From assembly GCA_018970025.1 (NCBI GenBank), contig JAGWXF010000027.1, positions 1 through 36,600 on the forward strand: 36,600 bases of DNA, written 5' to 3'. Under the pieces are notes generated by a model. It was not told the DNA's origin. It was given only the letters and a program-made list of their open reading frames with translations, and did not search any database. The translations under genes were made by a program, and so were the position numbers. Shown piece by piece: positions 2,709 through 36,600 of the stretch. Positions within the stretch are counted from its first letter, which is position 1; each line of letters starts with the position of its first letter. This DNA comes from Actinomycetales bacterium (GTDB lineage Bacteria > Actinomycetota > Actinomycetes > S36-B12).

Positions 2709-3492
2709 GTTCCACCACCCGATTCGTCAGCGAGCCGATGCCGTCGATCGCGACCGTGACCGTGTCGCCCTCCCGCAACGGCCCGACCCCCGCGGGTGTT
2801 CCGGTCAGGATCACGTCACCTGGGACGAGGGTCATGACGGCGCTGACTGCCTCGACAAGCGCAGGGACGTCGAAGACCATCTGCGTCAGGTCGGCCTGCT
2901 GCCGCACGTCGCCGTTGACGGTGCATCGGATTGCCGCATCAGCCGGGCGGAAGTCCGTCTCGATCCACGGGCCGATCGGGCAGAAGGTGTCGAAGCCCTT
3001 GGCCCGGGTCCACTGCCCGTCGCGGCGCTGCAGGTCACGCGCAGTCACGTCATTGGCGCAGGTGTAGCCCCAGATGACGTCGTCGGCGGAGTGGGCTGGG
3101 ACGTCCCGGCACAGGCGCTTGATGACGACCGCGAGCTCGGCCTCGTGCTCGACGCTCTCCGACTGCCAGGGCAGCATGATCGACTCCCTCGGCCCGATCA
3201 CCGAGGTGCTCGGCTTCAGGAAGATCATCGGCTCCGCCGGCAGGTCATTGCCGAGCTCCTGGGCGTGGGCTGCGTAGTTCCGGCCGACCGCGAGGACCTT
3301 GCTCGGGATGACCGGCGCGAGCAGTCGGACGTCGGCCAGGGGCAGGACCCGGCCGTCGGGAACGAGGTCCCCGACGGGATGGCCGACGAGCAGGGCAATG
3401 ACGGTCTCGTCGGTGATCTCGCCGTCCGCACCGACGCCCTCGACCACCCCGTAGCTGACCTCTTCATCCACGGCGACCCGGCAGATGCGCAT
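2701..3492 (-). CDS. Fumarylacetoacetate hydrolase (FAH) family protein
   Basis: A 263-residue FAH-fold enzyme. The family cleaves or isomerises diketo-acid type compounds in a metal-dependent manner and includes acylpyruvases, oxaloacetate decarboxylases and HpcE-type isomerases. Visible hallmarks are [15 protein letters not shown], the acidic metal site around [11 protein letters not shown] (E117, E119) with D148 in [11 protein letters not shown], and [12 protein letters not shown] near 165. The N-terminal part (MRICRV...) is the usual short lead domain of the actinobacterial members. It overlaps gltX by 8 bp and follows cimA by 46 bp. Substrate cannot be decided; acylpyruvase or oxaloacetate decarboxylase activity is plausible from the family. 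The ATG at 3492 is the natural start. Confidence 0.88.
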
Positions 3493-9116: not shown

Positions 9117-12880
<3,764 letters not shown>

Positions 12881-26067: not shown

Positions 26068-28143
26068 TCACGCCCGCCCGGTGAGCATCCGGTCCAGGAC
26101 GTTCGAGCACACCCGGCGCAGGCCGGCCGTCGGCCCCTCCACCACCAGGCACCCGCTTGCGGTGATCGAGCTCACCGCGAGGACCAGGCCACCCGCGGGG
26201 GTTCGGGTGACGGCCAGGTCGGCTCGCAGGGACGGATCAGGCGCACGCGCCGGGCCATGCTCGAAGACGCCGAAGTGATCCGGCGTGCTCGGCGTGCTGG
26301 TGGCCAGGATGGTGGTCTGGCCAGGGGTCGGCAGGCTGGCATCCCACTGATCGAACTCATTGCCCGGCCCGGTGTTGATGCCCTCGGAGCCGAACTCCTC
26401 GCCCGCCACCCCGGCGAATGCCCAGTCCCAGTCCGGTGCGTGGCTGGCATCCGTGCGGGTGAACGTCATCGAGGCGCCGGCGCCGAAGCCGGCGAACCCG
26501 ACCCCGACCAGCGCATTCGGAGGCCTGCCCTGCTCGGCCCACAGTCCGCCGAGGCACGACTCGTATTGATGGAGCCGGTCGGCGGGCTCCACGGAGCAGG
26601 TCTGGGATCCGCCCCAGCGGCGCACCTCCATCAGGTGCGGCTTGGCTGGATGCAGGCTGGTCACCCAGTACAGGCCGTTGCCGCCGAGGTAGATGACATT
26701 CCCGCCGCGGTCGAGGAAGGCGGCCAGGGCGTCGAGCATCCGGGAGGTCCAGTACTCCGGGTGGGCGGAGAGGATGAGGACGTCCACGCCGGCAAGTGCC
26801 GCACTGCCCTGCTCGTGCAGGGCGCGATCGCCCACCACCCCGGGAGCCCTGCCGTCCTGGACGAGCCAGTGCCAGGCATACAGGTCGGCGGTGAGCAGGT
26901 GCGCGGGCAGGTCGCCCACCGCGAAGCCGTCGCCCCCGTCGACCTCGAGCCGGGCCTGCGGCCCGAAGGTCGGGCAGGGCCGACGTGCCGTGGTGATGAT
27001 GACCGGGGACCCGTCGGCGTGCAGGGAGTAGTGGGAGCGCCCTGGCCAGGTATCCGGGTCACGGCCGAGATTGCCGTAGGCCTGCCAGGTCAGGGTCGAG
27101 GCCAGCAGGCTGACCCGTGCCGGGCGCTGCACCACGAACGGGATGTCCAGCACCTCGCCCTGCGACTGGACGCGGATGCCGTAGAACCCGGCCTGCGCAT
27201 CGGCCGGGATATCCACGGCATGCACGACCGGCCACCGGCAGTCCTCGAGATCGTCCCGGTGGAAGTGGATCGAGCCGGCCGGCGTCAGCAGGTGGCCGTT
27301 CGTCTCCACCGGTGCCGGGTACTCGCCGCTGAACGCGGGCGCCTGGTGCAGGCGCAACGCGGGGGTCGATCCGCCGACCCCGGGGATCGAGTCCGAGTCG
27401 GTGCGATCGGCGAAGTCCCAGGCATGCGCCGGGGCCGGGCCGTACCCGTTCATGATGTCCATGAGCTCGACGATGTCCAGGGCCCGGCCGTGCACCTGCA
27501 GGCCGGTGACAGTGCCGTCGAAGGCCCCGTTGGCGAGGTCGAGCCCGGCTCCGATCGCGAGGTCGATCCCGGTGGTGCCCAGTTCGGGCCGCTGGGCCGA
27601 CGTCGGTCCGCCGGCAAGCGCGTCGAAGCCCTGGACGAAGGGCCCGCCGGTGCGGCCCCATGGCGCACTGAAGACATCGACCGAGCCATCGGGCCGCCAG
27701 GCCGCCCCGATGAAGTGCCAGGCGCGCTCGCGGATCCGCTGCCCGGTCAGGCGCGGCTCGCCTGTGGCATCGGCCAGTGCCAGCATGCCGTCGACGACTG
27801 CCAGGCCGGCTCGCCGCGACGACCCGGGTTCGGCCCAGGAGAGCACGAATGCTCGGTGGCTGAGGTCGGTGGGCCGGGCCCAGGCGCAGATCGTCATGCC
27901 GGCTGCCGGCGAGGCATCGACGCGAGCGCTGGCATAGGAGCCGGGCTCGGCGCCCTCGTCAGGGGCGCTGAACTCCCCCGCGCCCCAGTCGCATGGGTAT
28001 GCGATCACGCCCGGTCCGGCCGGGTGCGGATCGCCATGCTGCCACCGCCAGACGGCTGCCGTGGCCTGCGCCACGCCGCGTGCATGCAGTCGCACGACCT
28101 GGCCTGGAACTGCCTCGAGGGTGTCGACGTAGCCGCGAATCAC
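26068..28143 (-). CDS. N,N-dimethylformamidase large-subunit-like protein
   Basis: A 691-residue protein resembling the catalytic (large) subunit of N,N-dimethylformamidase, which hydrolyses dimethylformamide to dimethylamine and formate. In order: an N-terminal beta domain with VPGQVVRLHARG, a LamG/concanavalin-like domain (about 80-235; FDGTVTGLQVHGRAL), and a C-terminal amidotransferase-like domain (about 310-690) with LTWQAYGNLG (Y356), LYAWHWL (Y422), LILSAHPEYWTSRM (E463) and NVIYLGGNGLYW. DMFase binds iron through Tyr and Glu; Y356 and E463 are candidates by position only. No small subunit gene is visible. The GTG at 28143 has TAGCCT six nt upstream and a LacI-type operator 27 nt upstream. 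The true substrate is unknown. Confidence 0.82.
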   Translation of the reverse strand: MIRGYVDTLEAVPGQVVRLHARGVAQATAAVWRWQHGDPHPAGPGVIAYPCDWGAGEFSAPDEGAEPGSYASARVDASPAAGMTICAWARPTDLSHRAFVLSWAEPGSSRRAGLAVVDGMLALADATGEPRLTGQRIRERAWHFIGAAWRPDGSVDVFSAPWGRTGGPFVQGFDALAGGPTSAQRPELGTTGIDLAIGAGLDLANGAFDGTVTGLQVHGRALDIVELMDIMNGYGPAPAHAWDFADRTDSDSIPGVGGSTPALRLHQAPAFSGEYPAPVETNGHLLTPAGSIHFHRDDLEDCRWPVVHAVDIPADAQAGFYGIRVQSQGEVLDIPFVVQRPARVSLLASTLTWQAYGNLGRDPDTWPGRSHYSLHADGSPVIITTARRPCPTFGPQARLEVDGGDGFAVGDLPAHLLTADLYAWHWLVQDGRAPGVVGDRALHEQGSAALAGVDVLILSAHPEYWTSRMLDALAAFLDRGGNVIYLGGNGLYWVTSLHPAKPHLMEVRRWGGSQTCSVEPADRLHQYESCLGGLWAEQGRPPNALVGVGFAGFGAGASMTFTRTDASHAPDWDWAFAGVAGEEFGSEGINTGPGNEFDQWDASLPTPGQTTILATSTPSTPDHFGVFEHGPARAPDPSLRADLAVTRTPAGGLVLAVSSITASGCLVVEGPTAGLRRVCSNVLDRMLTGRA

Positions 28144-28149
28144 GTCGGC

Positions 28150-28155
28150 AGGCTA
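28150..28155 (-). promoter_or_regulatory. Leaderless -10 element of the dimethylformamidase-like gene
   Basis: TAGCCT lies 6 nt before the GTG at 28143, with no Shine-Dalgarno. The palindrome at 28170-28185 begins 14 bp further upstream and would overlap the -35 region. Confidence 0.5.
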
Positions 28156-28169
28156 CGCGAAAACTCTTG

Positions 28170-28185
28170 GAACAAGCGCATGTTC
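28170..28185. promoter_or_regulatory. LacI-type operator, imperfect copy
   Basis: GAACAAGCGCATGTTC differs by one base from the perfect palindrome in the P450 promoter (31440-31455). Its place just upstream of the -10 of the dimethylformamidase-like gene is right for a repressor site, most likely for the LacI-family protein encoded at 30320-31369. Confidence 0.7.
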
Positions 28186-28210
28186 AGCGATATTGACCTC
28201 GCGCGTCCGG

Positions 28211-30115
28211 TCAGTTCCGCGCCCACTGGGCATACAGGGTGAGGTCACGGCCCGGATTGATGACCTTGCCGTCGGAGTAGTTCGTGCCGATGCCCGATGG
28301 GGCGGTGTTCCATCGCACGAATCTGTGCCGCGAGCGGGTGAAGGTGTTCGGCGCAAGCGCTGCGCTCACCCCCCGGACAAAGGACTGCTGGCTCATCGTC
28401 CCCGACCCGCCATTGCGGTCAAAGGTCACGGTCCAGGTCCGCTGGGACCACTGCGCGTACAGCGTCACGCTCGCCGCCACGGAGATGGCCTGCCGGTCGA
28501 CGTAGCCTGTTCCGGTCCCGTCCGCCTTCGTATTCCACCCGGCGAAGCCATAGGACTCCCCCCGCGTGAACGCATTGGCGCTCAGCGTCGCACTCGACCC
28601 CGAGGCGATCCCCTGCGCAGGCATCGTCCCCGAGCCGCCATTGGCATCGAACGTGATCGTGCAGCACGCCTGCCACTGCGCATACAGCGTCAGGTTCGAC
28701 GTCGGCGTGATGCTGGCCCCGGCCGGATACGCCGTGCCCGTGCCGTCTGCCCTGGTGTTCCACCCGGCGAACGTGGACCCGGCCTTGGCGTAGCCAGTGC
28801 CCGCGGGAGCAGTCACGCTCGCTCCGCTGCCGGTGGAGCTCAGCGGCGGCACCTGCGTCCCCGAGCCGCCGTTCGCATCGAAGGAGACGGTGTAGCACGT
28901 CTGGCACGACCACTGGGCGTAGAGCGTGATGTCGGACGGTGGCGTCATCGTCTGCCGATCCGAGTAGGCCGTGCCGCTTCCATCGGCCTTGGTGTTCCAG
29001 CCCGCGAACGCGAAGCCGGAGCGGGTGTAGGGATTCAGGTTCAACGTGTCTTGACCCCTGTCCCAGAACACCTGCGGGCGAAGCGCCATCGGATTCTTCG
29101 ACGCGCTTGGCTTTGGCTGCCCGCCATTGGCGTCGAAGGTGACCGTCCACGCCTCGCGCCACGTGGGGCGCCACACCATGGACCTGCCGATCACCCATTG
29201 CTCACCCTCTTCGACTCCCATCAGCTCCCCTGGTTCGCACCGGGATCGGCTCCCGTAGACGCACAGCATGTTGAGGGACGCCTCGGTCTGGATCCAGCCA
29301 TCGCTGGCATAGCCCGGCCGAGTGAATGAATCAGCCCGAGGTGCCGTCCACTTCGACCCGACAGCCATGGTCACCGGGCTCATCGATCCCGTCCCGCCGT
29401 TGGCCTCGTAGGAGATCGTGCAGCATGGGCGGAACTGCGCATGGACCCATCTGGATGCCGGGTTCCCCTTCTGCCAAATGGCTGGGAACGGGGCCTTCAC
29501 GCCCGGGGTATAGGTCACCCCTGCATCATCAACCCACCCTGCGAACTCAATCGTTCGGTTCCACGTCTTCCAGTCATACCCGCTGTCGAGCCATCCCCCT
29601 GGGACCCAGCCCGCGGCGGCATCGCAGTACAGAGGAGACTGGCCGCCCCACGGATGCTCATACGCTTCGCCAATCAAGGCATTGATCTCGACGCCGGAGG
29701 TGAGGTTGACGCGCACGCACGAGGACGTCGCCTTGCTGGAGGCAGTGCTCGACGCCGACGCCGTGCTGGAAGCCGACGCCGTGCTGGACGCCGACGCCGT
29801 GCTGGACGCCGACGCCGTGCTGGACGCCGACGCCGTGCTTGACGCCGTGCTGGCTGAGGTTGCCATGGTCGTCGCACTCGCACTCGCGCTCGCGCTCGCG
29901 CCTGCGGTCGCCACCGGGGTTGGGGTCGCGGCCGGGGTTGCGGTCGCCGAGGCCGTGCTGCCGGCATCGCCGCGCACGATGGGCGCACGACTCCCCGGCA
30001 CGCCACTGGAGCACGCGCTCACGAGCAGGGCACCGAGGCCGGCAACCACCGCCATCCGCGCCAGCGAGCCGGTCGATTCGACTCCACCCTTGGGTCTGCG
30101 CACGTCGGGCTCCAT
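28211..30115 (-). CDS. Repeat-rich surface lipoprotein with InlB-type B-repeats
   Basis: A 634-residue exported protein. A basic n-region and the hydrophobic stretch MAVVAGLGALLVSAC form a lipoprotein signal with lipobox VSAC (C35), so it should be anchored on the outer face of the membrane. Residues about 48-130 are almost only Ala, Ser, Thr and Pro, likely a flexible stalk. A Cys-containing region of about 100 residues follows, then five B-repeat (Listeria-Bacteroides, Flg_new) units, recognised by five ANGG/RNGG turns and four LYAQW ends with GWNTxADGTGT between. Such repeats occur in adhesins and large surface proteins. Several CxxC or CC pairs open the repeats. Binding partner is unknown. 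Confidence 0.88.
   Translation of the reverse strand: MEPDVRRPKGGVESTGSLARMAVVAGLGALLVSACSSGVPGSRAPIVRGDAGSTASATATPAATPTPVATAGASASASASATTMATSASTASSTASASSTASASSTASASSTASASSTASASSTASSKATSSCVRVNLTSGVEINALIGEAYEHPWGGQSPLYCDAAAGWVPGGWLDSGYDWKTWNRTIEFAGWVDDAGVTYTPGVKAPFPAIWQKGNPASRWVHAQFRPCCTISYEANGGTGSMSPVTMAVGSKWTAPRADSFTRPGYASDGWIQTEASLNMLCVYGSRSRCEPGELMGVEEGEQWVIGRSMVWRPTWREAWTVTFDANGGQPKPSASKNPMALRPQVFWDRGQDTLNLNPYTRSGFAFAGWNTKADGSGTAYSDRQTMTPPSDITLYAQWSCQTCYTVSFDANGGSGTQVPPLSSTGSGASVTAPAGTGYAKAGSTFAGWNTRADGTGTAYPAGASITPTSNLTLYAQWQACCTITFDANGGSGTMPAQGIASGSSATLSANAFTRGESYGFAGWNTKADGTGTGYVDRQAISVAASVTLYAQWSQRTWTVTFDRNGGSGTMSQQSFVRGVSAALAPNTFTRSRHRFVRWNTAPSGIGTNYSDGKVINPGRDLTLYAQWARN
29751..29840 (-). 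repeat. Five 18-nt tandem repeats in the lipoprotein stalk
   Basis: On the plus strand GACGCCGACGCCGTGCTG recurs five times with one or two changes, then a partial copy. In the gene frame this encodes a Ser/Thr/Ala six-residue repeat. Copy number may vary between strains by slippage. Confidence 0.85.
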
Positions 30116-30319
30116 TCTCAGCTGGTCGTCTCACGGCTTGACCGAAGGTCTCGCGGCTGACTGTTGGCGTGCGTTGAGTAGACCCAACTTCATCCGGCAG
30201 GGCAACGACCCTCGCGCCCGCACAGGCCACGGTGTTCGGTTTTTGCGCAGTCCGAGGTCCGCGGCCAGCCGATCGTGGCGGGTATGCCCGCGTGATGACG
30301 TCAGGCTCAGGTGCTGCGC

Positions 30320-31369
30320 TCAGCCGGGCGGCGGGCCGACGGAGCGCCGCCGCACCACGATGGGGCTCGGATCGCTGACGGTCACCGCCGCCGGGCCGGG
30401 CTCGCCGACGAGCCGACGGTGGAGCATCTGCATCGCCTGCCGGCCCAGCTCCTCCAGCGGCATCGCGATGGTGGTCAGCGGCGGGCAGAGGTAGTTGGCA
30501 AGGGGCGCATCATGGAAGGCGACCATCGACAGATCGTCCGGGATGACGATGCCCTGGTCGCGCGCGGCAGCCATCGCGCCGACGGCGGCCGCGAGGCTGG
30601 CGGCGGCGACTGCAGTGGGCTGGGGCTGCTGGCCGAGCAGGGCGAGCATGCCCGCGTAGCCGGAGGCCTCGTCGAAGTCGTGGTGCACGACCAGGCCCGC
30701 GGTCACCGTCAGCCCTGCCTCCCGCATGGCCCGCTTGTAGCCCTTGACCCGGCGCCGGGAGGTGTCGACGTCCGGGGGGCCGGCCAGGCAGGCGATGCGC
30801 CGATGACCGGCATCGACGAGCTCGCGGGTGCCGAGGTACATGCCGTACTCGTCGTCCTCGATGACCTGGGGCACCTTGCCGGCGATCTGCCGATTGAGCA
30901 CGACCACGTTGCCGGTGCTGCCGAGCAGGTCGTCGGTCACCTGGTCGGTGAGGGTCCCGCTGGCCAGGAGCAGGCCATCGACCCTGCCCTCGAGGACGAG
31001 CTTTCGGACGGCGTCATTGGCGCGGCCGAGCTCGGAGCCGTCGGCGACGACGAGCACGTAGCCCAGGGCACTGGCCGCATCCGCCGCTCCCTTGATGACG
31101 TCCGCATAGATCACCCCGGAGACATTCGGGATGAGCAGGCCGATGGTGGAGGTCTTGCGCACGGCCAGGCTGCGGGCACTGGCATTGGGGACGTACCCGA
31201 GCCGGTCGGCGGTCTCGCGGATCCTGGCCCTGGTCTCGTCGGTGGCGCGGGCGCGGTGGTCGTCACGGAGCACCCGCGAGACGGTCGACTGGTCGACACC
31301 CGCCTCGCGGGCGACATCGGCCAGGGTCACCGCGGGCCGAAGGCTTGCCGCCCTTGCCCGTGCCGTCAC
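30320..31369 (-). CDS. LacI-family transcriptional repressor
   Basis: A 349-residue LacI/GalR regulator. The N-terminal helix-turn-helix TLADVAREAGVDQSTVSRVLRD and hinge region (LGYVPNASARSLAVRKT) are followed by a periplasmic-binding-protein-like effector domain (STIGLLIPNVSGVIYADVIKG ... VVVLNRQIAGKVPQ). The GTG at 31369 has TACGAT six nt upstream (leaderless); a GTG at 31402 is the alternative. It is divergent from the P450 gene, whose promoter holds a perfect palindrome with the central CG typical of LacI-family sites; a near copy precedes the dimethylformamidase-like gene. It probably represses both and is released by a pathway compound. The family often senses sugars, but the effector here is unknown. 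Confidence 0.93.
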   Translation of the reverse strand: MTARARAASLRPAVTLADVAREAGVDQSTVSRVLRDDHRARATDETRARIRETADRLGYVPNASARSLAVRKTSTIGLLIPNVSGVIYADVIKGAADAASALGYVLVVADGSELGRANDAVRKLVLEGRVDGLLLASGTLTDQVTDDLLGSTGNVVVLNRQIAGKVPQVIEDDEYGMYLGTRELVDAGHRRIACLAGPPDVDTSRRRVKGYKRAMREAGLTVTAGLVVHHDFDEASGYAGMLALLGQQPQPTAVAAASLAAAVGAMAAARDQGIVIPDDLSMVAFHDAPLANYLCPPLTTIAMPLEELGRQAMQMLHRRLVGEPGPAAVTVSDPSPIVVRRRSVGPPPG

Positions 31370-31375
31370 CCGCAG

Positions 31376-31381
31376 ATCGTA
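31376..31381 (-). promoter_or_regulatory. Leaderless -10 element of the lacI-family gene
   Basis: TACGAT lies 6 nt before the GTG at 31369. It is about 60 bp from the palindromic operator. Confidence 0.5.
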
Positions 31382-31432
31382 CTCACCGAGCAGGCCGGGC
31401 ACGGGCGCGTGACGCTCGCCGGAGCGGAACGC

Positions 31433-31461
31433 TTGACAAGAACAAGCGCTTGTTCAAGGAT
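31433..31461 (+). promoter_or_regulatory. P450 operon promoter with perfect LacI-type operator in its spacer
   Basis: TTGACA (31433-31438) is a consensus -35. A weak -10 (AAGGAT, 31456-31461) lies 17 nt downstream. The spacer holds GAACAAGCGCTTGTTC (31440-31455), a perfect 16-bp palindrome. Binding of a repressor here would block RNA polymerase. The P450 ATG follows at 31491 with GGAAGGGG as ribosome site. Confidence 0.75.
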
Positions 31462-31490
31462 TCGAGAACCACGACGGAAGGGGTGCCGGC

Positions 31491-32672
31491 ATGGCCGAGG
31501 CACTGACATTCGATCCATTCGACGCCGCGAACACCGCAGACCCCTACCCGGTGTACCAGCGGCTCCTGCGCGATGCGCCCGTCTACCGAAACCAGGAGCG
31601 CGACTTCTGGGCACTGTCCCGGTTCGATGACGTGAAGGACGCGATCATGGACTGGGAGCACTACTCCAGCGCCGAGGGGGTGCGCATCGACGACCTGCTC
31701 GAGCTCGCCGGTCCTTCTCCCCTGACCATGGATCCGCCCCGGCACGCACTGCTGCGCAATATCGTCCGAAAGCCCTTCGCCCCCCGGGCCATCGCCGAGA
31801 TGACGCCGATGATCGAGCGCAACGTCGATGCGCTGCTGGCCGGGCTGGCGGCCGAGTCCGGCCCGTATGAGGTCGTCTCGCGCTTCGCCAAGCTGCTGCC
31901 CGTCGCGGTCATCTGCGACCTGCTGGGCGTGCCGGCCGAGGATGCGCCCATGCTGAAGGGCTGGGCCGATGCCATGCTCGAGACGGTCCCCGGGCAGGTC
32001 GGCTCGACACCCGCGGCCATCGGGGGGGCGTCGAGCCTGCGCGCGTACTGGCTCGCGGCGCTCGACGAACGCCGGGCAGATCCGCGCGCCGACATCCTGA
32101 CGGCGATCGCCACGGCCGAGGTCGACGGCAGTGCGCTGCCGGCCGACGAGCAGGTCGGGATGTGCAATCTGGTGTTCGAGGCGGGCAATGCCACGACGGG
32201 CACCCTGATCGCCAATGCCGTGCTCGCCCTGGCCACGTACCCCGATCAGCGTGCGTGGCTGGCAGCTCACCCCGAGTGCCTGACGGGCGCCATCGAGGAG
32301 TTCCTGCGGTGGGAGTCGCCGGTGCAGGGCCTGATGCGGGTGACCAAGCAGGATGTCGAGGTCCATGGCGTCCGGATCCCGGCCGGCCAGCGGGTGCTGC
32401 TCGTACTGGGCGCCGCCAACCGCGACCCCTCCGTGTGGCAGGCACCCGATGAGCTGCGCCTGGACCGCGAGGTCATCCGCAACCTTGCCTTCGGCGAGGG
32501 CATCCACCACTGCCTCGGCGCTCCCCTGGCCCGGCTGGAGGCGCCGATCGCACTCGAGCGGTTCCTGGCCGCCTTCCCCGACTACCGGGTGCAGGACGTC
32601 ACCAGATTCCATGACGTGTCGATGCGCACCCTGAAGGCACTGTGGATCGAGCCGTCGGGTGCAACGCGATGA
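31491..32672 (+). CDS. Cytochrome P450
   Basis: A soluble bacterial heme monooxygenase of 393 residues. Visible: MDPPRHALLRNIVRKPFAPRAI (C-helix region), I-helix FEAGNATTGTLIANAV (231-236 AGNATT), ExxR in EEFLRW (E270, R273), and the heme loop FGEGIHHCLG with the thiolate ligand Cys341. In most P450s the I-helix carries an acid before the Thr pair (AGxE/DT); here Ala replaces it, so oxygen activation may differ. No ferredoxin or ferredoxin reductase gene is next to it. It is the first gene of a three-gene unit overlapping DUF1330 by 4 bp (ATGA), under a LacI-type operator. Substrate unknown. Confidence 0.95.
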   Translation: MAEALTFDPFDAANTADPYPVYQRLLRDAPVYRNQERDFWALSRFDDVKDAIMDWEHYSSAEGVRIDDLLELAGPSPLTMDPPRHALLRNIVRKPFAPRAIAEMTPMIERNVDALLAGLAAESGPYEVVSRFAKLLPVAVICDLLGVPAEDAPMLKGWADAMLETVPGQVGSTPAAIGGASSLRAYWLAALDERRADPRADILTAIATAEVDGSALPADEQVGMCNLVFEAGNATTGTLIANAVLALATYPDQRAWLAAHPECLTGAIEEFLRWESPVQGLMRVTKQDVEVHGVRIPAGQRVLLVLGAANRDPSVWQAPDELRLDREVIRNLAFGEGIHHCLGAPLARLEAPIALERFLAAFPDYRVQDVTRFHDVSMRTLKALWIEPSGATR

Positions 32673-33037
32673 CCCGGCTCGACGTCGACGGCGACCCCCT
32701 CGCCGACCTGCTCGCGCGCTACCCCGACGAGCCGGTGGTCGTGGTCAACCTCGTTCGGCTGAAGCCGGGAGGCCAGGACGCCCACCGTGCCTACCTCGAC
32801 CAGGTCGACGGCATTCTCCAGCGGTACGGCGCGACGCCCTGGTATGCCGGTGCCGGCCTGGGCACCCTCATCGGCGAGGAGCACTGGGACAAGGCCGCGA
32901 TCACCGCCTACCCGAGCGTGCGGGCCCTGGCGGCCTTCATCGCCGATCCGCAGTTCCTGGCCCTGGCACCCCTGCGGCATGAGGCGCTCGATGCCGGGAT
33001 CGTGCATGTCTTCCGGCAGCCAGTGGATCCCGCGTGA
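32669..33037 (+). CDS. DUF1330 family protein
   Basis: A 122-residue ferredoxin-like (dimeric alpha/beta barrel) protein. PVVVVNLVRLKPGGQDAHRAYLDQVDGILQRYG, then GTLIGEEHWDKAAITAYPSVRALAAFIADPQF, is characteristic of DUF1330. The family has no firmly known reaction, although related barrels are monooxygenases, dismutases or isomerases acting on pathway intermediates. The ATG at 32669 overlaps the P450 stop (ATGA) and its own stop overlaps the next start (GTGA). Very tight coupling suggests it acts on, or helps handle, the P450 product. Confidence 0.82.
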   Translation: MTRLDVDGDPLADLLARYPDEPVVVVNLVRLKPGGQDAHRAYLDQVDGILQRYGATPWYAGAGLGTLIGEEHWDKAAITAYPSVRALAAFIADPQFLALAPLRHEALDAGIVHVFRQPVDPA

Positions 33038-34497
33038 CGGCATACCGCGAGGCCTTCGAGTACGCCTTCTCGCCGCTGTCGCCCGATGCTCCGCATGTCG
33101 ACCCGCCTGCCGTCGCGGTCTACCAGACACTGCTGGTCCGCGGCCCCGACGGCGGGCCAGCGCCGGCGATGGCGAGCGAGTGGACGATCAGCGACGACGG
33201 CCTGACCTGGCTGCTGCGCCTGCGCGACGACCTGGCCTTCCATGCGGGGGGCCCGGCGACCTCCCGAGAGGTCCTGGCCACCCTGCAGCGCCTGCGGGAG
33301 CACTGCCTGCCCGGGGACCGCCAGCTGTGGTACTGGGACCCAGTGCGCGACCTCGACGCCCCTGACGAGCGGACGATTCGCCTGCGCCTGCATTACCCGC
33401 ACCCACGGCTGTTCACCTTGCTCTGGGGCACGCATACGGCGATTCACGACGAGGCCATGCGGTCCGCGCTCGGCGACGACTTCGGGCGCGTGACAGCGAG
33501 CGGGACGGGCCCGTACCGGATGGCCTCCTGGGCCGCCGATCGCATCCGCCTGGAGCGCGTCGCCGCCAGCGACCACCTGCCCGAGGAGCTCGTCTTCAGC
33601 CACCTGGCCAGCGCATCCGATCGACTCGATGCCCTGCTGGCCGATGAGGTCGACTGCGCCCACGCCCTGGATGCGGCCGGCCTGGCGGCCCTGCATGACG
33701 ATCCGCGCTTCATCATGTGCCGTCAGCGCCAGCCATCGAACATGTACCTCAGCCTTGACTGGGCCAGGGATGATCTCGGCTTCGATGACGTGCGGACCAG
33801 GCAGGCCATCAGCCTGGCCATCGACCGCGACCGACTGGTGCAGGTGGCGCTCGGCGGCCTGGGCGCGGTGGCATATGGGCCGCTGCCGCCGGGGCTGCCG
33901 TTCCACGACCCGGCAGTCGACCGCGGCAGGCATGACCCGGCGCAGGCCCGTGCGCTCCTGGCCAGCCTGGGCTGGCAGCCGGGGGCCGATGCCGTGCTGG
34001 AACGCGGGGGCATCCGGCTCGACTTCGAGTGCGTCGTCCCGGACGACCCGGTGTTCGCGCGGGTCTTCGAGCTCGTGGCGCAGGACCTCGCCCAGGCGGG
34101 CATCCGCATCACGTCATTACCGGCGCGGCCATTCGCCGACTTCTACGCTGCCGTGGGCCGGCATCCTGCCGCGGCAATCTCCAAGTGGCTGTGGCCTGAT
34201 CCGGTCGAGGCGCTCATCGGGTTCACCAGTACCTCCACGGCACCCTTCCCCAACTGGCAGCGGGCGAGCTCGCCTGACCTCGATGCCGCCTTCGATGCCT
34301 TCCTGCGGGCCACGGATGCGGTCGGCCACCAGGCCGCCGCATCGGCGATTCAGCGGATCTTCGTCCGCGACCTGCCGTATGTCCCGCTGCTCACCCCCGA
34401 CGACACCTGGGCCTGGAACCGCCGGGTCAGCGGATTCCGCCCCCGGCCCGGTGACCTCTACCCGCCCTACGACGCGGTGAGCCTCGGGCCGATGTGA
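33034..34497 (+). CDS. Cytoplasmic family-5 solute-binding-protein-like protein
   Basis: A 487-residue protein with the fold of ABC solute-binding proteins of family 5 (oligopeptide/DppA type): VYQTLLVRGPDGGPAPAMASEWTISDDGLTWLLRLRDDLAFHAGG, GTGPYRMASW, DDVRTRQAISLAIDRDRLVQVALGG, DPAQARALLASLGW and DLPYVPLLTPDD. Exported members start with a signal peptide; this one starts with MTAYREAFEYAFSPL from a GTG overlapping the DUF1330 stop and has no hydrophobic segment. No permease or ATPase gene is nearby. It is therefore probably cytoplasmic and may bind or sense the pathway substrate rather than import it. Its end overlaps the convergent EthD gene by 31 bp. Confidence 0.85.
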   Translation: MTAYREAFEYAFSPLSPDAPHVDPPAVAVYQTLLVRGPDGGPAPAMASEWTISDDGLTWLLRLRDDLAFHAGGPATSREVLATLQRLREHCLPGDRQLWYWDPVRDLDAPDERTIRLRLHYPHPRLFTLLWGTHTAIHDEAMRSALGDDFGRVTASGTGPYRMASWAADRIRLERVAASDHLPEELVFSHLASASDRLDALLADEVDCAHALDAAGLAALHDDPRFIMCRQRQPSNMYLSLDWARDDLGFDDVRTRQAISLAIDRDRLVQVALGGLGAVAYGPLPPGLPFHDPAVDRGRHDPAQARALLASLGWQPGADAVLERGGIRLDFECVVPDDPVFARVFELVAQDLAQAGIRITSLPARPFADFYAAVGRHPAAAISKWLWPDPVEALIGFTSTSTAPFPNWQRASSPDLDAAFDAFLRATDAVGHQAAASAIQRIFVRDLPYVPLLTPDDTWAWNRRVSGFRPRPGDLYPPYDAVSLGPM

Positions 34498-34793
34498 ACG
34501 ACGAAGCGCTGCGCCCGCTGCGCATCGGCGAAGGTGGCCGTGTGCTCGCGCACGGCCCGTGCCTGCGCAGAGGCCAGGCAGGCGTCCATCGTGGCCAGGT
34601 CGGGGAAGTCGAGGAAGCCGATGCCGTCGAAGGCGTCGTCATTCACGGCTGCCTCCTGCGCGGCGGGGCTCAGCGTCACGGCGAGCACGCCCGGCAGTCG
34701 GCGCACCAGTTCGCCGTGCTCGGCCCAGCCCGCCTGGAATTCCTGGCGAGTGGATCCCGGCCGCCGATACAGCACGACCACGTACCTGATCAC
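34467..34793 (-). CDS. EthD family protein
   Basis: A 108-residue dimeric alpha/beta-barrel protein: MIRYVVVLYRRPGSTRQEFQAGWAEHGELVRRLPGV is the EthD signature, followed by a GIGFLDFPDLATMDACLAS strand-helix. EthD was named from the ethyl tert-butyl ether pathway, where it accompanies a P450; its exact reaction is unsettled. Here it again lies beside a P450 unit, on the opposite strand. The GTG start at 34793 lies within the first of four 20-bp tandem repeats, so the start region has been duplicated upstream. A downstream start is unlikely because the conserved strand begins at the first residue. Confidence 0.85.
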   Translation of the reverse strand: MIRYVVVLYRRPGSTRQEFQAGWAEHGELVRRLPGVLAVTLSPAAQEAAVNDDAFDGIGFLDFPDLATMDACLASAQARAVREHTATFADAQRAQRFVVHIGPRLTAS

Positions 34794-36204: not shown

Positions 36205-36600
36205 TCATCCCAGCAGGCCTGGCGGCAGGCCGATGCGGTTGAAGGCATCTGCCGCCGCCTGCACGTGACGGCGGCCGTTCACCAGGGAGAACGCCAGGTG
36301 ACCGGGCATCAGCGACTCGAACTCGTACTCCAGCAGTCGGTTCATGGATGCGGCGTACTCCTGCACGCTGGAGTCGGCGACGTTCTGCAGGATGATCTTG
36401 CCGCCCCAGAAGACGTGATCGCCGCTGAACAGGTAGCTGTGGTCCTTCCCGGCGACCAGGAAGCACATATGGCCATTGCAGTGACCGTTGGTGAGGATCG
36501 CGGTCAGGGTGAACTCCCCTGCCGTGAACTGCTGGTCATGGGTGAGCTCGACGTCGATCTCGCACGGCTTCCAGGTGAAGTCGCTGGGATAGAAGCCGAA
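36205..36600 (-). CDS. MBL-fold metallo-hydrolase, C-terminal part (cut by window edge)
   Basis: The frame is open to the last base, giving 131 visible residues from FGFYPSDFTWKPC to GIGLPPGLLG. LTNGHCNGHMCFLV followed by YLFSGDHVFWGGKI matches the second half of the metallo-beta-lactamase fold (the GHxxGH metal motif and the later Asp). LESLMPGHLAFSLVNGRRHV-type residues near the end carry a further His. The N-terminal HxHxDH motif must lie beyond the edge. Members hydrolyse esters, amides or lactones. It precedes the amidohydrolase on the same strand, so both probably serve one pathway. Confidence 0.8.
   Translation of the reverse strand, partial: FGFYPSDFTWKPCEIDVELTHDQQFTAGEFTLTAILTNGHCNGHMCFLVAGKDHSYLFSGDHVFWGGKIILQNVADSSVQEYAASMNRLLEYEFESLMPGHLAFSLVNGRRHVQAAADAFNRIGLPPGLLG

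Follow-up and report, generated by a model that had tools for sequence, protein, structure and literature searches.

A recurring palindrome as the likely operator of a local LacI-family regulon for an importer, an amide hydrolase and a cytochrome P450 in Actinomycetales

The Locus and Its Genes

The stretch of DNA considered here, referred to as the window, comprises positions 1 to 36,600 of contig JAGWXF010000027.1 of an Actinomycetales bacterium (assembly GCA_018970025.1). It carries a LacI-family gene that is divergent from a cytochrome P450 gene, with a 16-base palindrome, O1, between the two; a near-identical copy, O2, lies upstream of a gene for a PF20254 amide hydrolase (Table 1). A first-pass annotation of this DNA had taken the two palindromes as a sign that the P450 unit and the hydrolase belong to one regulon. 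The best reading of the data gathered since then is a conserved local LacI regulon, whose members extend to a second contig of the same genome and to four related genomes.

Downstream of O1, the P450, DUF1330 and SBP5-like genes are likely to form one operon because their starts and stops overlap. On the opposite strand follow three genes of the set described below, the last of which is interrupted by the end of the window at 36600, so that the set is distributed over more than one contig in this assembly. The genome itself (G000; 2,636,945 bases, 39 contigs) is about 89% complete.

Table 1. Features of the window and predicted operator and tat loci of related genomes
Feature	Position	Strand	Remark
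PF20254 amide hydrolase (dimethylformamidase large-subunit / N-acetyl-beta-phenylalanine acylase family)	26068..28143	-
Operator O2 (predicted), GAACAAGCGCATGTTC	28170..28185		26 bases before PF20254 hydrolase start
LacI-family repressor, predicted binder	30320..31402	-	Pfam, homolog comparison
-35 hexamer TTGACA of P450 unit (predicted)	31433..31438	+	perfect hexamer
Operator O1 (predicted), GAACAAGCGCTTGTTC	31440..31455		35 bases before P450 start
Cytochrome P450, first gene of O1 unit	31491..32672	+	Pfam; accessory, 2/5 genomes
DUF1330 small protein	32669..33037	+	ATG 32669 overlaps P450 stop; longer frame from 32642
SBP5-like protein without export signal	33034..34497	+	PF00496; start overlaps previous stop
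EthD-like small protein	34467..34793	-	conserved set; Pfam on G040 ortholog
Amidohydrolase PF01979	34917..36161	-	conserved set; open frame reaches 36248
MBL-fold hydrolase, cut by contig end	36205..36600	-	conserved set; Pfam on G040 ortholog
G052 sites	C32:41761 and C32:52833		52833 identical to window O2
G100 sites	C39:66661, 68773, 82555		pattern search, among the matches listed
G040 site	C13:82270		pattern search
G067 sites	C152:1221, C152:12964, C114:5232		pattern search
G100 tat loci	L034:7501-8599 and L084:4890-6846 (G100:C39)		tatA-tatC; tatB-like - P450 - ferredoxin

The Palindrome in the Window and in the Genome

As first described, O1 is a perfect palindrome (0 mismatches) with a C/G center, and O2 differs from it at one base. 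When up to three mismatches are allowed, the 16-mer is found in the window at these two places only. None of 100 dinucleotide shuffles of the window held two matches (mean 0.04, largest 1), and a composition-only estimate with 70% GC assumed gives 0.009 expected places in the whole genome at up to one mismatch, so that the earlier judgment that chance recurrence is unlikely holds.

The genome scan proposed at that time has now been run. With up to two mismatches, it finds 4 places, against 1 for the reversed pattern, and many unrelated copies were not seen. No more than one mismatch is present in three of these: O1, O2, and an exact copy on contig C16 (G000:C16:35547-35562); all three lie upstream of genes from one conserved set. 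The fourth, at C3:1360, has two mismatches and falls inside an open reading frame, which we take to be that of glycyl-tRNA synthetase.

The C16 copy stands 54 bases before the ATG (35617) of an SBP5 gene, the first of an importer operon with the order SBP5, DppB, DppC, and two ABC ATPase genes. The other arm at this promoter holds GntR, EthD, aminotransferase, SDR, SBP5-like, MBL, M20, amidohydrolase, and alcohol-dehydrogenase-like genes, and the stretch that was fetched starts inside a DMGDH-like gene. The families on this arm were assigned with Pfam on the orthologs of G040, while alcohol-dehydrogenase-like and DMGDH-like are labels given here.

Conservation in Related Genomes

The relatives sampled were 166 genomes of the order, own genome included. 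Orthologs of the LacI protein, 65-74% identical, occur in four of them (G052, G100, G040, and G067), and among the matches listed no other exceeds 42% identity. Searches of wider samples added none: at E 1e-90, 394 genomes of the class gave 4 matches, all from the order and already known, and 396 genomes of the phylum gave a single match, the own genome. A near copy of this LacI on a plasmid was also considered and rejected, as all 30 records are below 60% identity, and the best match listed has 39.6%.

The comparison of promoter regions shows that the motif is kept in all four relatives that keep the genes. Twelve operators were counted, 3 in the own genome and 9 in the relatives. Left out of this number were seven weaker look-alikes in the stretches fetched, at 3109 of the window, at 50594, 58188, and 65911 of G052, at 78743 and 82572 of G100, and at 9779 of G067:C114, together with two sites of G021; a stretch of G103 (L038) did not enter the comparison. 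With both strands counted, columns 3-5, 8-9, and 12-14 are invariant, and the C/G center is present in 12 of 12.

The exact 12-base core, ACAAGCGCTTGT, occurs in 17 of the 166 genomes: in all five that have this LacI (9 places), versus 12 of the other 161 (one place each). Each of the 9 cores in the five LacI genomes adjoins genes of the conserved set. The association of core and LacI has a Fisher p of 6e-6, to be read with the shared ancestry of the genomes in mind, which are not independent. As a control, the reversed core was counted as well; over all genomes it is more frequent than the core itself (50 genomes, 62 places), but the five LacI genomes hold only 3 of its places.

What do the five genomes have in common? 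In the stretches fetched, all of them encode the importer, the EthD protein, the MBL hydrolase, and at least one non-secreted SBP5-like protein. The PF20254 hydrolase is likewise found in five of five: the orthologs of G052, G100, and G040 are full length and 53-55% identical, and that of G067 is a contig-edge fragment (39%). The remaining PF20254-matching genomes, out of 19 in total, reach at most 37%.

A site precedes the importer in all five genomes and the PF20254 gene in four, at 26 bases in the window, 29 in G052, 28 in G100, and 231 in G067. In G040, the hydrolase gene is one of a series that continues downstream from the importer genes, and it needs no site of its own. In G052 and G100, the PF20254 gene comes immediately after lacI, and a site separates the two. 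This linkage may extend further: a comparison by eye found 13 LacI clusters, that of G100 among them, that share the exact size of their longest contig with a PF20254 cluster. Such equal sizes, down to about 51% LacI identity, suggest that the linkage of lacI and hydrolase is present in further contigs and older than the five genomes.

Promoter Geometry

The palindrome had been placed between the -35 and the -10 of the P450 gene, next to the divergent lacI-family gene. The second point is confirmed: O1 is 37 or 70 bases from the start of lacI, depending on the start codon, and the homolog P0001 starts at the residue that matches the GTG at 31369. As for the first, the -35 hexamer is perfect, and the 17-base spacer after it consists of one A and the palindrome. 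The promoter of the C16 importer has a similar arrangement, as it reads CTTGACATA-[GAACAAGCGCTTGTTC]-TAGGTT, i.e., TTGACA-TA-operator. Both operators sit in the space after TTGACA; therefore, a repressor bound there would be expected to block RNA polymerase directly.

The importer sites of all five genomes have TTGAC(A/T/G) 1-2 bases upstream and lie 36-59 bases before the start codon; the best of these promoters is that of G052, TTGACT-16-TATAGT, with 10 of 12 matches. Taking all sites together, a start codon follows at a distance of 26-62 bases in 11 of the 12 cases and at 231 bases in the remaining one. For LacI-family sites, the sections of a published account of local LacI-family regulons used here (PMC4052901) give a location between 140 and 30 bases upstream for more than 75% of them. 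The same sections report autoregulation in 72% of cases, and here self-repression would follow from the position of O1 upstream of the divergent lacI.

The LacI-Family Protein

The predicted binder has a LacI helix-turn-helix (HTH) domain (PF00356, residues 26-73) and an effector domain (PF13377/PF00532), all above the cut-off. Its nearest solved relatives are CcpA, PurR, and RbsR, which do not settle the effector. The HTH stretch DQSTVSRV is common to 26 of the 37 homologs caught by this pattern, among the 120 matches listed. The palindrome would provide a likely operator for this clade, whose members, where named, carry generic names only.

Three further proteins, P0100, P0101, and P0102 (403-405 amino acids), resemble this LacI in their first part (81% over 44% of the query) and then continue with a HipA-like C-terminal domain, identified by a Pfam check on P0100. 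They are either fusions that break the effector domain or assembly chimeras.

The Amide Hydrolase

The hydrolase had been called dimethylformamidase-like. The family assignment stands, with a DMFA2_C domain (PF20254) at residues 287-666 (E 3.7e-62), but the name is overly narrow. Among solved structures, N-acetyl-(R)-beta-phenylalanine acylase (8huy, 8i59, 8i5a) comes closest; the alignment takes in almost the whole protein, residues 2-685 of 691 (E 1.8e-53), although the similarity remains remote; a literature search on this acylase found no paper. The Paracoccus N,N-dimethylformamidase large subunit (6lvb) shares the domain but aligns in two pieces and scores lower (E 1e-41).

The iron ligands of dimethylformamidase are Y399, Y440, and E521, as stated in the part of the source used here (PMC7686228). 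Residues Y356, Y372, and E463 of the window protein align with them, and among 70 sequences, own included, these putative ligands are kept in 70, 70, and 69 (one gap), respectively.

Importer, SBP5-Like Proteins and P450

The binding protein of the importer has a twin-arginine (Tat) motif and a lipobox (RR(G/S)F ... LAACSS), and so do its orthologs in the four relatives. This leader sets it apart from SBP5/Dpp oligopeptide importers such as DppABCDF, GbpA, and NikA, with which it shares the importer gene set and the SBP5 family. Another difference is that one or two additional SBP5-like proteins without leader are encoded alongside.

The one in the window is the widely shared member of the P450 unit. 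Its model has the SBP5 fold (pLDDT 94.5), with GbpA as the best PDB match (3m8u, TM 0.88). No export signal was found by a crude criterion, a 15-residue hydropathy above 1.6 within the first 45 residues, and the start of the gene overlaps the upstream stop. Among its 115 homolog clusters (E 1e-60), none has a leader by this measure (median score 0.65); two importer leaders score 1.74 and 1.67, narrowly above the threshold. A second SBP5-like protein of the own genome also lacks an apparent export signal (L005:5075-6574; G000:C16:30071-31573). In the fetched stretches, the first type is present in 4 of 5 genomes (not seen in G052) and the second also in 4 of 5 (not seen in G100). These proteins likely stay in the cytoplasm.

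The P450 has vitamin D3 25-hydroxylase as its nearest solved relative by sequence. Its orthologs are restricted to 2 of the 166 genomes, the own and G100 (70%), and the next best match has 42%. In G100, a tatB-like gene stands between it and the nearest operator, at a distance of about 690 bases.

Two sites of G100 are close to tat genes. The one at C39:66661 is upstream of a tatA-tatC pair, and TTGACA-17-TAGCCT comes directly after it; the one at C39:82555 is between the importer and the divergent set of tatB-like, P450, and ferredoxin genes. These tat genes are possibly dedicated members of the regulon, with the divergent set presumed to be under the same control. Dedicated Tat genes make sense in G100 because the importer binding protein carries a Tat signal.

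Interpretation and Rival Explanations

With high probability, the palindrome is the operator of the neighboring LacI, which is predicted to repress the importer, the P450 unit, and the amide hydrolase until an imported compound or its product releases the repressor. At O1 and at the C16 site the block would be direct, as set out above, and at O2 the target of the repressor may be a start of the hydrolase gene that is weak or internal. Once released, the system would take up its compound with the Tat-exported SBP5 lipoprotein and DppBCDF; the PF20254 iron hydrolase, the amidohydrolase, the MBL hydrolase, the EthD protein, and, optionally, the P450 might then open amide bonds and oxidize the pieces. 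The regulon likely serves the use of an amide- or peptide-like compound.

A regulon of this type is already known. The sites adjoin the regulator gene and a small number of pathway operons, with few elsewhere, and the system would work as an ordinary local LacI regulon with unusual cargo. The likeness to the local LacI-family regulons of PMC4052901, as far as the sections used go, includes the HTH and periplasmic-binding-type effector domains, an even, CG-centered palindrome as the predicted operator (1251 of 1303 motifs in that collection are even, and 1173 have a CG center), sites 26-62 bases before starts except for the one at 231, few linked operons, and possible autoregulation. The difference is in the cargo: here it is an SBP5/Dpp-type importer with amide hydrolase and amidohydrolase enzymes, and no sugar enzyme was seen.

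Several points weigh against this reading. The candidate -10 at O1, AAGGAT (31456-31461), matches at 3 of 6 positions; that half of the promoter first claimed for the P450 gene is therefore weak. The same low count is found at C16 and at the importer sites of G040 and G067, while G100 (4) and G052 (5) do better. O2 had been placed just upstream of a -10 of the hydrolase gene, which is not borne out: no convincing pair of hexamers is present (best 6 of 12), and a strict scan of 28000-31600 calls no promoter at either O1 or O2. The PF20254-gene sites of three relatives also lack a clear promoter (best 5-7 of 12), and the distance of 231 bases in G067 is large next to the others. Up to 4 positions of the window 16-mer are changed in the operators of G052, G040, and G067, so that the two outermost bases of either half are only loosely conserved. 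At three mismatches, the own genome shows no excess over the reversed control (15 versus 17 places), so that weak sites are not callable. One of the 12 sites, G100:C39:66661, precedes tatA-tatC with no enzyme gene, and a one-mismatch copy, G021:C3:446539-446554 (L036), lies in a genome without this LacI, where the 20 kb around it hold no gene of the conserved set. Finally, none of the Pfam-scanned genes is a sugar enzyme, whereas, of the 182 LacI groups to which a pathway is assigned, 176 control carbohydrate genes according to the sections used of PMC4052901; either the effector class is unusual, or the pathway has been misread.

Could the palindrome be no operator at all? It can form a stem, the site at G100:C39:66661 is inside a longer imperfect inverted repeat, and a scan calls the importer site of G052 terminator-like. 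However, a chance recurrence or a structural hairpin is extremely improbable: chance was rejected on the shuffles, the genome scan, and the low expectation, and this reading does not fit the position of all close genomic copies upstream of genes of the set, their return at matching places in five genomes, or the distance of 26-62 bases to a start codon at 11 of the 12 sites. Alternatively, the sites could be those of a different regulator, for which the most plausible candidate is the GntR/FCD protein whose gene is divergent from the C16 importer operon; LacI and GntR/FCD were the two regulators compared across the five genomes. Its gene adjoins the importer operator or lacI in the own genome, G052, and G040, which are also the only genomes with an ortholog: at E 1e-20, G100 has no match, and G067 has nothing closer than a 36% paralog. 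Both of these genomes keep several sites, which GntR thus cannot explain, and it was rejected as the common binder. As LacI is present in all five genomes and an even palindrome with a C/G center is of the LacI type (PMC4052901, in the sections used), control by GntR is quite unlikely.

The remaining alternative is that of the first-pass annotation, a dedicated pathway under LacI that pairs oxidation by the P450 with C-N hydrolysis by the dimethylformamidase-like enzyme. In its favor, sites precede both genes in the window, and in G100 a P450 is also in the neighborhood, next to a ferredoxin. Yet the P450, rejected here as a constant member, is found in only two of the five genomes, while all five have the genes for the importer, the MBL hydrolase, and the EthD protein; moreover, the hydrolase aligns better with the acylase. 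A dedicated pathway of this kind is unlikely. What survives of the proposal is that the P450 unit and the hydrolase very likely belong to a single LacI regulon, of which this pairing is one local edition.

Beyond the local LacI regulon favored here, a more speculative possibility deserves mention. Among the papers listed by the literature searches, none describes this gene set, and it may represent an undescribed uptake-and-breakdown system in which the imported amide-like compound is passed on within the cell to the non-secreted SBP5 proteins. These members of the importer's binding-protein family would have been recruited as intracellular ligand carriers, buffers, or sensors for the PF20254 iron hydrolase and its partners, under a non-sugar LacI, with G100 using its own tatABC to export the Tat-dependent binding protein. 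We regard this as possible rather than probable.

In any case, what began as two motifs can now be tested as a regulon, one that extends over two contigs and is shared by five genomes from two families. Through it, a particular importer is connected with a family of iron amide hydrolases whose functions are mostly unknown, and attention is drawn to an SBP5-like family that is likely cytoplasmic.

Additional Observations

A gene for a thiamine pyrophosphate-dependent E1-beta protein accompanies the set in the four relatives, while the own genome has only a 39% paralog, on contig C29; the gene is either absent or was lost at the contig break after 36600.

In the window, as in G052 and G100, lacI is followed by the PF20254 gene, but here another gene is interposed. 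It lies between lacI and O2 (28211-30115) and encodes a protein with five List_Bact_rpt repeats, for which no match was found in the stretches examined from the four relatives. The region of this gene includes an 18-base tandem repeat in 5.7 copies (29745-29847).

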